DNA from: an uncultured Rhodobiaceae bacterium
GTDB taxonomy: Bacteria > Pseudomonadota > Alphaproteobacteria > Rhizobiales > TMED25
Length of the DNA: 64,000 nt
Assembly (NCBI GenBank): GCA_913045225.1
Contig: CAJWPC010000003.1
Span: 156,705 to 220,704 of the forward strand
Reading direction: 5' to 3'
The translations under genes and the position numbers were made by a program. Within the stretch, counting starts at the first letter, position 1. Each line of letters begins with the position of its first letter. The notes below the pieces were generated by a model, which was not told where the DNA came from, did no database searches, and saw only the letters and a list, made by a program, of their open reading frames with translations. This document shows positions 30,018-33,494 of this stretch, piece after piece.

Positions 30018-30107
30018 CTTGTCCTTTAAAGCATGGCAATACATTGGCAACAGGCCGTCAGGCTGATAACCTGAAGGTCGTAGGTTCAAATCCTACCCTC
30101 GCAACCA
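30018..30107 (+). pseudogene. 3'-half copy of the initiator tRNA, with leader relic
   Basis: 30057-30107 matches the last 51 bases of the tRNA-fMet at 28594-28644 at 47 of 51 positions, including the encoded CCA. The changes are C to G in the anticodon (CAT to GAT), a paired C-to-T/G-to-A change that keeps the T stem intact, and a C to T in the acceptor strand. The 5' acceptor strand and D arm are missing. A leader resembling that of tRNA-fMet (CTTGTCCTTTAA, 30018-30029) is also present but 32 bases too close. It cannot fold as a full tRNA. Confidence 0.8.
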
Positions 30108-30173: not shown

Positions 30174-31373
30174 ATGCTATCTGTTTTATCCGAAAAAAGT
30201 TTTAGAAATCTTTTTTTTGCACAAAATTTCTCTTTATTGGGCAGCGGTCTCGCAACTATTGCAATCAGTCTATTGGCGTTTGATTTGACGGGTCAAAATG
30301 CCGCGCTTATTCTTTCGGGTCTATTTACAATAAAAATGCTCGTCTATGTCATTTTTTCACCTTTCGCAGGTGCAATAGCAGATAAATTTGACACAAAAAA
30401 ATATTTAATAATTCAGGACGTAATTCGTGCAATTGCTGCGTTTGGTTTAATATTTGTCAGCGAAATTTGGCATTTATACATTATAATTGTACTTATTTAT
30501 CTCTCGACTGCAGCTTTTACCCCGATATATCAGTCAGCAATTCCAAAAATATTTAAAGATGAGACCGATTACACAAAAGCTCTATCACTTTTTAGGATAG
30601 CTCAAGATATGGAAAATATCCTAAGCTATGCACTTGCCACATTATTATTACTTTTTCTTAATTATAATTTATTATTTGTGGGAACTTTTATTGGTTATTT
30701 TGTCTCTGCGTTATTGATATCTGGGATTATATTCCCATTCTTATCTAAAACATCAGGTGAAAAAGAAAATAATTTCAGTACTAATCTCACTCTGGGTATT
30801 AAAAGATACTTGAGCATATCAGAGTTGAGGGGATTGATGTTTCTAAATTTGGCTGTTTCTGCAGGCGGATCAATGATACTCGTTAATACAATCATTTTAG
30901 TAAGGTTATCTTTAGAATTATCAGAAATTGCTTTCTCCATTACGATGCTATTATTTGGGGCTGGTTGCATATTTGCAGCCATAATAATTCCACATCTTTC
31001 CAAGGAGATGACAGCAAGTCGTATAATGCTAGCAGGTTCTAATCTCTTATCTATAATATTTGTGGCTCTTGCCTTTTGGCTGATACTATTTGATTTTATT
31101 TGGTTTGTACTGTTATTGGCATGGTTTATTTCAGGTTTTGGTTATACACTTTTGCTTACTCCGATGGGACGAGTGATCCGGATGGTATCCTCGGTGGATG
31201 AGTTTTCGCAGGTTTATTCAGCGCAATTCTCTTTGAGTCACTTATGTTGGTTATTTATGTACCCTCTCTCAGGGTATTTAATGACCATATCAGGTGGACC
31301 TTTCACACTTCTTACACTAGCCTTGCTAATGGTATGCTCAAATATAATTGCTGCATGGCATTTTAGACGTTGA
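30174..31373 (+). CDS. MFS transporter (EntS-like/MFS_3 type)
   Basis: 399 aa with about 12 hydrophobic segments. The N-terminal SFRNLFFAQNFSLLGSGLAT and the loop 2-3 motif GAIADKFDTKKYLI resemble the MFS_3/EntS group of exporters and uncharacterised permeases. It probably sits in the inner membrane as a drug or metabolite exporter; the substrate cannot be read. It begins 66 bases after the partial tRNA and ends just before the cobalamin riboswitch, so it may be unrelated to the cobalt genes. Confidence 0.83.
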   Translation: MLSVLSEKSFRNLFFAQNFSLLGSGLATIAISLLAFDLTGQNAALILSGLFTIKMLVYVIFSPFAGAIADKFDTKKYLIIQDVIRAIAAFGLIFVSEIWHLYIIIVLIYLSTAAFTPIYQSAIPKIFKDETDYTKALSLFRIAQDMENILSYALATLLLLFLNYNLLFVGTFIGYFVSALLISGIIFPFLSKTSGEKENNFSTNLTLGIKRYLSISELRGLMFLNLAVSAGGSMILVNTIILVRLSLELSEIAFSITMLLFGAGCIFAAIIIPHLSKEMTASRIMLAGSNLLSIIFVALAFWLILFDFIWFVLLLAWFISGFGYTLLLTPMGRVIRMVSSVDEFSQVYSAQFSLSHLCWLFMYPLSGYLMTISGGPFTLLTLALLMVCSNIIAAWHFRR

Positions 31374-31414
31374 AAATATGATGAAATATTTTTGATAATC
31401 CCTGAAATTACTAA

Positions 31415-31443
31415 TTGACAGTTGGGTATTTTCATCATCTACT
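31415..31443 (+). promoter_or_regulatory. Promoter of the cobalamin-riboswitch operon
   Basis: A perfect TTGACA (31415-31420), a 17-base spacer and TCTACT (31438-31443). The predicted start of transcription, around 31450, coincides with the 5' strand of riboswitch helix P1 at 31451. Confidence 0.6.
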
Positions 31444-31450
31444 ATTTGTT

Positions 31451-31537
31451 ATGGATTTAGGGAACACGGTGCAAGACCGAGGCTGCCCCCGCAACTGTAA
31501 TTAATATGTATATATTGTAAGCCAGATACCGATCCAT
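31451..31537 (+). promoter_or_regulatory. Cobalamin (adenosylcobalamin-type) riboswitch aptamer
   Basis: The conserved B12 core is clear: GGTGCAAGACC, then GGCTGCCCCCGCAACTGTAA (31481-31500), then AGCCAGATACC (31520-31530). The outer helix P1 forms from ATGGAT (31451-31456) and ATCCAT (31532-31537). The middle part is short (about 20 bases between the B12 box and GCCAGATACC), so this is a compact aptamer. The following ribosome site GGAGGG at 31555-31560 is a likely target for occlusion, meaning translational control of cbtB; this last point is inference. Confidence 0.92.
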
Positions 31538-31564
31538 TTTATTAAATTATTCACGGAGGGTGAT

Positions 31565-31747
31565 ATGTACTCAAAATTATATCAACTAATTACGTTTCGC
31601 GACCTGCAAACGTCTACAATCTTAAAGTCTTTATTTGTAATTGCATTTGGCTTTTCCATGATAATGCTTTTCGGTTTTGCATCCCCAGAGCTAATTCACG
31701 ATGCAGCTCACGATGTAAGGCACATTATGACTTTTCCATGCCATTAG
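31565..31747 (+). CDS. cbtB: Cobalt transporter subunit CbtB
   Basis: A 60-aa single-span membrane protein ending AAHDVRHIMTFPCH, the histidine-rich C-terminus typical of CbtB (HDxRHxxxFPCH). It partners CbtA in B12-regulated cobalt uptake. GGAGGG precedes the ATG, and a cobalamin riboswitch precedes that, so expression should fall when B12 is plentiful. cbtA follows after 18 bases. Confidence 0.9.
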   Translation: MYSKLYQLITFRDLQTSTILKSLFVIAFGFSMIMLFGFASPELIHDAAHDVRHIMTFPCH

Positions 31748-31765
31748 AAAATATTAGGTGATTAA

Positions 31766-32413
31766 GTGATTAAATATCTATATCCCGCACTTGTTGCAGG
31801 TCTAATAACAGGTTTTGTTGTTACATTATTTAACTTACTTTTTGTTCAACCATTGATCGTTGAAGCGGAGTTATTCGAACTGCATTCTGCAGGGGTAGCT
31901 CACGAGCATTTCCACGATGGGGGTGAGGATAGCTCTCTTATAAATGAGAGAAATTTTCTGACACTACTCGTAAATATTGCAATGTCTGTTGCATTTTCGT
32001 TAATCGTAATAGGTTTTTATTATATTAGAGGTGGCACCAATGACGCCAGAAACCTGTTAAAAATAACCTTCACCGGCTTTTTCATCTTTTTTTTGTTGCC
32101 GAAGATTCTAATATTACCTCAACTTCCCGGACAAAGCCTTGGGAATACAACATACGTTCAAATGCTATGGGTCTTCACAACACTGGCATCAATAGCAATT
32201 TTAGCAATCGCTGATAAATTAAATTATTTTTCTGTGAAGCTCTTATTACTATTAACTCTTAGTGTGATATCGATATTTATCTTACTAAATATAGACTTAG
32301 TTTTATATAAAACAGACGCGTTGCATTCTACCTTTATATACTATACCTTTATATCAAATTTAATTTTGTGGACCTTGCTGTATCTAAATTTAAATTATTT
32401 CATCAAGGATTAA
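31766..32413 (+). CDS. cbtA: Cobalt transporter subunit CbtA
   Basis: A 215-aa membrane protein with about five hydrophobic helices. The N-terminal helix (LVAGLITGFVVTLFNLLFVQ) is followed by a periplasmic-type loop rich in histidine (HSAGVAHEHFHDGG), a plausible Co2+ collector. GTG is used as the start, with AGGTG 5 bases upstream. Together with CbtB and the riboswitch this is a standard B12-linked cobalt importer. Confidence 0.9.
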   Translation: MIKYLYPALVAGLITGFVVTLFNLLFVQPLIVEAELFELHSAGVAHEHFHDGGEDSSLINERNFLTLLVNIAMSVAFSLIVIGFYYIRGGTNDARNLLKITFTGFFIFFLLPKILILPQLPGQSLGNTTYVQMLWVFTTLASIAILAIADKLNYFSVKLLLLLTLSVISIFILLNIDLVLYKTDALHSTFIYYTFISNLILWTLLYLNLNYFIKD

Positions 32414-32437
32414 TATTTTTACATTAAATGGTTCTTG

Positions 32438-33202
32438 ATGTTTGAGTTATTCACCGACAATTATATACTTTACATTATTTTTCTTATAATCTTTTTGATT
32501 TCGGGTTTTGTAAAAGGGGTAACAGGTATTGGCCTACCACTTACCTCTATTGCTCTTTTAACATTTTTTATAAATCCACTCCAAGCAATTGGTTTAAATA
32601 TGATTCCAGTTATTGTCGCAAATTTCCAGCAATATATTTCTGCAGAAAGCCCAATGAATACTGCGAAAAAATATAAAGTTTTTGCAATTACAATGCTTGT
32701 ATTTATTTTTATTACATCATTTCAAGCAGTAATTCTAGGTGATGAAATTTTAAAACTACTAATAGGTATATTGGTCGTAATTTTTGCTTTAGATAATCTG
32801 TTCAGAGGGGCTTGGTCATTTGATATAAAGAATGATCGATTGTGGCAACTTGGAATGGGCTCGATCGCAGGCATAATTGGTGGTTTGACTTCAATTTGGG
32901 GTGTGCCAATAATAATCTATCTGATATTGAGGAAGGCATCACCACAAGAATTTGTCGACACAACAGGATTCTTATTTTTGATTGCCGTTATTCCGGCAAC
33001 AATTGGGTATTATTATACAGGTGTATTTTTGTTAGAGATGGTTCCAATAGCAATATTTTGTGCAGTGTTTGCGGTTATCGGAATGAGATTAGGTAGATAT
33101 GTACGTCTTAAAATTAATGCAGAGACCTTCAAAAAGGTACTTCTATGCCTTTTCTTTATAATAGGCGTGCGGCTAATCAGTTCATTTTTTGGTGTAATGT
33201 AA
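32438..33202 (+). CDS. TauE/SafE family permease
   Basis: 254 aa, about eight hydrophobic segments in two repeats: SGFVKGVTGIGLPLTSIALL near the N-terminus and LGMGSIAGIIGGLTSIWGVP in the middle are the paired TauE/SafE signature loops. The family exports sulfite, sulfoacetate or other small organic anions. An in-frame TTG precedes the ATG at 32438; ATG is chosen. Only 24 bases separate it from cbtA, so it is probably on the riboswitch transcript, raising the possibility of a cobalt-linked role, but this is inference. Confidence 0.85.
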   Translation: MFELFTDNYILYIIFLIIFLISGFVKGVTGIGLPLTSIALLTFFINPLQAIGLNMIPVIVANFQQYISAESPMNTAKKYKVFAITMLVFIFITSFQAVILGDEILKLLIGILVVIFALDNLFRGAWSFDIKNDRLWQLGMGSIAGIIGGLTSIWGVPIIIYLILRKASPQEFVDTTGFLFLIAVIPATIGYYYTGVFLLEMVPIAIFCAVFAVIGMRLGRYVRLKINAETFKKVLLCLFFIIGVRLISSFFGVM

Positions 33203-33212
33203 ATATTTGATA

Positions 33213-33494
33213 ATGATAATAACAATTGACGATTATATCTCTTGGCGAAAATCTACTAAATGCATAAACCTAAAATATATTGCAGGTGATACTGCCGTAT
33301 TATCAATCTCCAAGAATGGGGTTGATGCCCAGGCAATGTATATCAATTCAATATTGACAGAATATTCAATTGAACCTGGCTGTTGGTTTACAGTCGAAAC
33401 ATTAGGCTATAAAACTGAGATTGAAGAAAATATTAATTCAGGGAGTGTAACAATAGCACCTGAAAATTGGAGACCAACACCGCTTCAAAACTAG
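33213..33494 (+). CDS. Hypothetical protein, small, soluble
   Basis: 93 aa with no recognised domain and no signal peptide (begins MIITIDDYISWRKSTKC, ends APENWRPTPLQN). An in-frame TTG at 33207 would add two residues. It begins about 10 bases after the TauE-like gene and is likely co-transcribed with it. Codon use resembles its neighbours, so it is probably real. Function unknown. Confidence 0.6.
   Translation: MIITIDDYISWRKSTKCINLKYIAGDTAVLSISKNGVDAQAMYINSILTEYSIEPGCWFTVETLGYKTEIEENINSGSVTIAPENWRPTPLQN

Follow-up and report, generated by a model that had tools for sequence, protein, structure and literature searches.

Which of the genes that follow a cobalamin riboswitch serve B12 metabolism, and which simply share its transcription unit? 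The question arises at a locus on contig C3 of a 1.34-Mb genome (99% complete), within a window of 64 kb, by which we mean the whole stretch of DNA analysed. The host belongs to the OCS116/TMED25 family, marine alphaproteobacteria with small genomes, which was sampled here with 14 genomes: twelve of genus g1, the window genome among them, and two of a second genus, g2. A sequence-only reading of the locus had described a compact riboswitch driving cbtBA and had suggested that a TauE-like permease and a 93-aa protein encoded further downstream may be unrecognised members of a B12-regulated metal system. The features concerned are the following.

31407..31551, + strand: cobalamin riboswitch, RF00174, 48.3 bits against a gathering cut-off of 31.5
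31415..31443, + strand: sigma-70-like promoter, TTGACA-17 nt-TCTACT, read from the sequence
31451-31456 and 31532-31537, + strand: arms of the predicted aptamer closing helix AUGGAU/AUCCAU, which encloses the core
31486-31491, + strand: L5, CCCCCG
31520-31530, + strand: B12 box
31551..31563, + strand: candidate P13-like hairpin UCAC-GGAGG-GUGA with the Shine-Dalgarno sequence in its loop, from conservation and folding
31565..31747, + strand: cbtB, predicted cobalt transporter subunit (PF09489, 59 bits, cut-off 27, E = 5e-16)
31766..32413, + strand: cbtA, predicted cobalt transporter subunit, GTG start (PF09490, 72.2 bits, cut-off 30.7, E = 7.8e-20)
32435..33202, + strand: tauE, TauE/SafE (TSUP) permease (PF01925, 103.5 bits, cut-off 32.6, E = 1.8e-29)
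33213..33494, + strand: 93-aa ORF, shortened Cupin_5 (DUF985)-like, from profile relatives of PF06172 and the match of its model to 1znp

By its Rfam match, the RNA before cbtB is an ordinary, size-reduced cobalamin riboswitch, and cobalamin binding is predicted for it. The match has E-values of 5.2e-9 over the 64-kb window and 2.5e-11 on a 301-base stretch, and it contains the conserved RF00174 core with L5 and B12 box (GGGAACACGGTG, GCTGCCCCCGC and AGCCAGATACC), in agreement with the B12 core that the sequence-only reading noted ahead of cbtB. A scan of the whole 1.34-Mb genome returned it as the sole RF00174 match at E ≤ 0.001. The full leader is no more stable than shuffled sequences (z +1.30); the identification therefore draws on family score and conservation, not on folding energy.

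The perfect TTGACA noted earlier ahead of the riboswitch occupies 31415-31420 and is followed by a −10 element, TCTACT, at 31438-31443, which together imply a start near 31450; the first arm of the closing helix begins at 31451, as expected from the proposal that the P1 helix starts at the predicted transcription start. A consensus promoter scan omits this site, the −10 of which is poor, and lists a 10-of-12 site further upstream (TTGAAA-18-GATAAT, 31370-31399) that would place the RNA start near 31406, at the beginning of the Rfam match (31407). In the same scan, promoter-like sites were no more numerous than in shuffled sequences (10; mean of the shuffles, 11.7). We prefer TTGACA as the promoter because TTGACA or TTGACT precedes all nine riboswitches found in the family, at −70 from L5 in five members, at −77/−78 in two and at −113 in two. 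The first ~40, poorly paired bases of the Rfam match would then be left untranscribed, and the transcribed part of the riboswitch probably starts at about 31450.

Immediately before cbtB, the block CACGGAGGGTGA is unchanged in 9/9 family riboswitches, and the window copy folds into a small hairpin (z −2.09), the loop of which is formed by the cbtB Shine-Dalgarno GGAGG. The L5 sequence CCCCCG could pair, with a mismatch, to CGG or GGAGG of this hairpin; the putative L5-L13 contact would comprise at most three Watson-Crick pairs and then an A-C mismatch, and L5 and the hairpin block are invariant among the nine riboswitches, which leaves no possibility of a covariation signal there. As described in one study of translational corrinoid riboswitches (PMC10653944), L5-L13 kissing governs the hairpin at the ribosome-binding site, and one case described there has a mismatch and a bulge. 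That an invariant hairpin presents the Shine-Dalgarno sequence in its loop suggests that cbtB is controlled at translation. With plentiful cobalamin the riboswitch would repress cbtBA: the bound aptamer would most likely hold the hairpin through L5 and stop cbtB translation, and cbtA output would fall along with it through coupling. Since control appears to be translational and directed at cbtB, tauE may be largely exempt from it.

The genes themselves are closely packed, with gaps of 18 nt between cbtB and cbtA, 21–24 nt between cbtA and tauE (the latter starting at TTG 32435 or ATG 32438) and 10 nt between tauE and the 93-aa ORF, in keeping with the earlier statement that cbtA, the permease gene and the small ORF follow one another at less than 30 bases. 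They are probably carried on a shared transcript. The proposal of a riboswitch driving cbtBA is supported. RF00174 directly precedes cbtB, and the products pass the PF09489 and PF09490 cut-offs; the predicted substrate of the transporter is cobalt. In 2016, according to one paper (PMC4771312), cobalt transport by CbtA was still awaiting experimental confirmation. A search for cbtA on plasmids found none.

The remainder of the genome provides a context for cobalt uptake. Contig C2 bears a cluster encoding a CobT-type phosphoribosyltransferase, CbiB, CobQ, a CobO-type adenosyltransferase, CobN (1440.7 bits against a cut-off of 822), a CobP-type kinase and, below its cut-off, a CobC/CobD-type decarboxylase. 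The B12-type ribonucleotide reductase NrdJ is encoded in 13 of the 14 family genomes, the window genome included, and with CobN, the other cob genes and NrdJ in place, cobalt uptake under B12 feedback fits. No protein of the window genome contains a PF02310 B12-binding domain (present in 6/14 family genomes) or a TonB receptor barrel (4/14). Given this combination, B12 is probably made by the cell itself, NrdJ being its sole user detected in the window genome. Of the steps in B12 metabolism, cobalt supply alone has a recognisable B12 riboswitch in this genome. The distribution of a MetH-size PF02310 protein forms a separate pattern: it occurs in G005, G006 and G013, which have no CobN, as well as in G007 and G002, with a 712-aa frame in G001, and is missing from G000, G003, G004 and G009-G012. 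Seven CobN carriers thus seemingly have no B12-dependent methionine synthase and CobN-less genomes have one, MetH being assigned here by size only.

Comparison with the rest of the order separates the common from the particular. We found cbtA in 103 of 297 genomes of the order, 94 of them outside the family, and RF00174 at 18 of 20 out-of-family cbtA loci (absent at L058 and L060), so that the riboswitch-cbtBA arrangement is in itself common and ordinary; it is real and of a known kind. Relatives of tauE or of the 93-aa ORF were found in 0/20 of these neighbourhoods (11–18 kb each, E up to 1; 20 of the 21 listed out-of-family cbtA loci, L062 being left out), and the same two profiles recovered known positives in a control. 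Likewise, among 30 out-of-family genomes with TauE (E ≤ 1e-20), none has it within 100 kb of cbtA on the same contig, a comparison in which fragmented genomes could hide some pairs. As far as examined, the addition of tauE to riboswitch-cbtBA is confined to the OCS116/TMED25 family. At two out-of-family loci (L043:2409-2870 and L057:2399-2853), two cobalamin riboswitches lie back to back, each on its own strand; one of them faces cbtBA, the other points away.

Within the family, the riboswitch was detected in nine of the 14 genomes (G000, G001, G002, G003, G004, G007, G009, G010 and G011). The same nine carry cbtA, the listed misses being G005, G006, G012 and G013, with G008 not shown. All nine encode CobN (in pieces in G001 and G007) and a CobQ over its cut-off (in pieces in G001). 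Conservation of tauE and the small ORF beside cbtBA, the check proposed earlier, was borne out for the former, which follows cbtA in 9/9 riboswitch-bearing genomes of two genera, but failed for the latter, which G007 and the two g2 genomes do not have and which is not linked to tauE in G003. All seven riboswitch-bearing g1 genomes have an MFS gene ahead of the riboswitch. Ahead of the MFS gene of the window lies a partial tRNA-like match (30046-30096, 33.9 bits, model positions 10-63) for which ARAGORN made no call, perhaps a tRNA remnant.

The two g2 loci have neighbours of their own. There (G001 L063:15514-16544; G002 L064:8019-9111), tauE is followed by a gene for a DUF4396 membrane protein, with a 4-nt overlap in G001, and then by one for a plastocyanin/azurin-type copper protein, which replaces the Cupin_5-like ORF; these neighbours were identified by a Pfam scan in G001 and assigned by similar sequence in G002. 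Directly upstream of riboswitch-cbtBA-tauE in G002, on the same strand, is a sulfur gene set (L064:11035-15009) consisting of DUF6691, a metallo-beta-lactamase-type protein, a BLH phosphatase and a sulfate permease. Genes of similar appearance lie ~9 kb downstream in G001 (L063:5691-7794).

Detection of tauE extends to 13 of the 14 family genomes and is not restricted to those with cobalt uptake and B12 synthesis. In G005, G006 and G013, which have no riboswitch, cbtA, CobN or over-cut-off CobQ, tauE is kept ~180 nt behind the MFS gene. The loss of B12 genes is read from CobN and CobQ as markers in few and incomplete family genomes, the three in question being 99, 75 and 90% complete, with 8% contamination in G005. 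Two further genomes without a detected riboswitch are G012, which has CobN and CobQ and a contig ending within tauE, and G008, which is 53% complete and yields a CobN piece only. In the TauE tree, G005, G006 and G013 form one branch (99/97), and their tauE has pN/pS values of 0.052–0.057, indicating strong purifying selection; close pairs that keep the riboswitch have similar values (0.015–0.085). No riboswitch remnant was found before tauE in the three leaders at E up to 1. These leaders do contain TTGACA, which also occurs in 107 of 2000 shuffles of one such leader and for that reason argues only weakly for an inherited promoter.

The explanation that we consider likely as a whole is that the riboswitch represses cbtBA and that the co-transcribed tauE is independent of B12. 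The cbtBA pair would provide predicted cobalt uptake that feeds the cell's own B12 synthesis. Lying in the same transcription unit and sharing its promoter, tauE would act independently of B12 and would have outlasted the loss of the tested B12-synthesis genes; it is because this loss clade keeps tauE that its job is taken to be independent of cobalt and B12. Its product would be a TSUP permease that probably carries a small anion, for instance a sulfur compound, a substrate taken from the family name only. No solved structure matched the TauE profile at E up to 1, and the neighbours of six of the nearest out-of-family TauE genes, viewed as ORF listings, gave no substrate hint. One observation counts against a B12-independent tauE: the synteny in 9/9 genomes of two genera is also what a functional partner would show. 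This synteny of riboswitch, cbtB, cbtA and tauE, together with the gap of 21–24 nt and the lack of any terminator-like site between cbtA and tauE, would equally suit an additional permease for cobalt or another metal that belongs to the B12 regulon and, like cbtBA, is repressed by cobalamin. We nevertheless regard such a permease, which is the role that the sequence-only reading had in mind, as unlikely. The gene is kept and constrained in G005, G006 and G013, where riboswitch, cbtA, CobN and over-cut-off CobQ are all missing, it has no relative at the 20 out-of-family cbtA loci, and nine of the ten TauE sequences counted contain no histidine. Our literature searches found no paper tying TauE to a B12 riboswitch; among the mentions of 'taue' that they returned were an author name and a list of sulfonate genes with no bearing on the riboswitch. 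More improbable still appears a variant in which the OCS116/TMED25 lineage recruited TauE into its riboswitch-controlled cobalt operon, where it would still serve cobalt or its counter-ion. The loss clade, on giving up B12 synthesis, would then have brought it directly under the promoter that had driven the riboswitch and turned it to a different ion.

The apparently translational mode of the riboswitch, which would affect tauE solely by way of polarity or coupling, leaves a way for tauE to be expressed mainly from an own or internal promoter without B12 regulation, its adjacency to cbtBA being accidental and old. This too is unlikely: the 21–24 nt gap leaves little room for a promoter, the scan found no + strand site within cbtA and its site at 32442-32469 would start transcription inside tauE, and the adjacency of cbtBA and tauE has been maintained in two genera. 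Finally, G005, G006 and G013 may have lost nothing, riboswitch and cbtBA having been inserted between the MFS gene and tauE elsewhere. A junction of MFS gene and tauE without riboswitch-cbtBA does exist in these three genomes, and the branching order within g1 is not settled by the TauE tree. However, g2 has riboswitch-cbtBA-tauE without the MFS gene, which makes a single loss simpler, and the same three genomes are also devoid of CobN and over-cut-off CobQ; we therefore consider insertion very improbable. Repression of cbtBA with a B12-independent tauE on the same transcript remains our preferred reading.

For the 93-aa protein, membership of a B12-regulated metal system finds no favour either, given a Cupin_5-like barrel and its patchy linkage to cbtBA. 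Its ORF is found in 10 of the 14 family genomes, directly behind tauE in nine, of which the G006 copy runs off the end of its contig; in G003 it lies on a different contig. It was not found in G007, G008 or the two g2 genomes and is accordingly missing or elsewhere in four of the nine riboswitch-bearing genomes; as a neighbour of tauE, the Cupin_5-like ORF is a feature of the genus. A Pfam scan of the protein gave no family above cut-off and no PF06172 match at E up to 1. A nine-member family profile (A2) recovered relatives in 31 other genomes, with 385 of the class examined, and of four relatives scanned, three (L134, L139 and L137) pass PF06172 and L133 falls just short. The AlphaFold2 model (pLDDT 84.8) has as its best Foldseek match 1znp, an Agrobacterium protein that we take to be a DUF985 member (E 7.7e-6, TM 0.80 by query length). 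Four 1znp chains have E below 1e-4, and 3loi, titled DUF985, stands lower in the list. As modelled, the protein has a jelly-roll fold like that of solved Cupin_5 members.

The loss clade serves as a natural control that distinguishes cbtBA, which likely does belong to the B12 regulon, from tauE, a possible operon-sharer, and it cautions that adjacency to a riboswitch is by itself insufficient for naming a function. The locus also presents a streamlined ocean bacterium with B12-synthesis genes in which cobalt import is the sole B12 step placed under a recognisable riboswitch.

Relative to known systems, the locus combines familiar parts in an altered form. It resembles the CbtAB predicted cobalt transporters (PMC2667541) in its Pfam families, its cob-gene host and its B12 riboswitch, and differs from them in staying below both NCBIfam cut-offs (TIGR02459, 49.8 against 64.4 bits; TIGR02458, 76.3 against 182.9 bits), from which we conclude that the Cbt proteins are divergent; the window cbtA encodes 215 aa. 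The window TauE match covers nearly the full PF01925 model, whereas its location behind a B12 riboswitch distinguishes it from other TauE/SafE proteins. Similarly, the C-terminal part of Cupin_5/DUF985 (PF06172) can be aligned with the 93-aa protein, which is missing ~50 N-terminal residues as well as the HPEGG and histidines of most relatives. The riboswitches of out-of-family cbtBA loci belong to the same RF00174 family and occupy the same position before cbtB, but those facing cbtBA span 195–230 nt and score 80–133 bits, in contrast to 116–154 nt and 41–63 bits in OCS116/TMED25. The initial description of the riboswitch as compact is supported. By eye, a CAC-purine-loop-GTG hairpin at the Shine-Dalgarno sequence is present in four of the 18 out-of-family riboswitches, whereas in most of the others before cbtB a separate Shine-Dalgarno sequence follows a GC-rich hairpin whose loop is rich in G.
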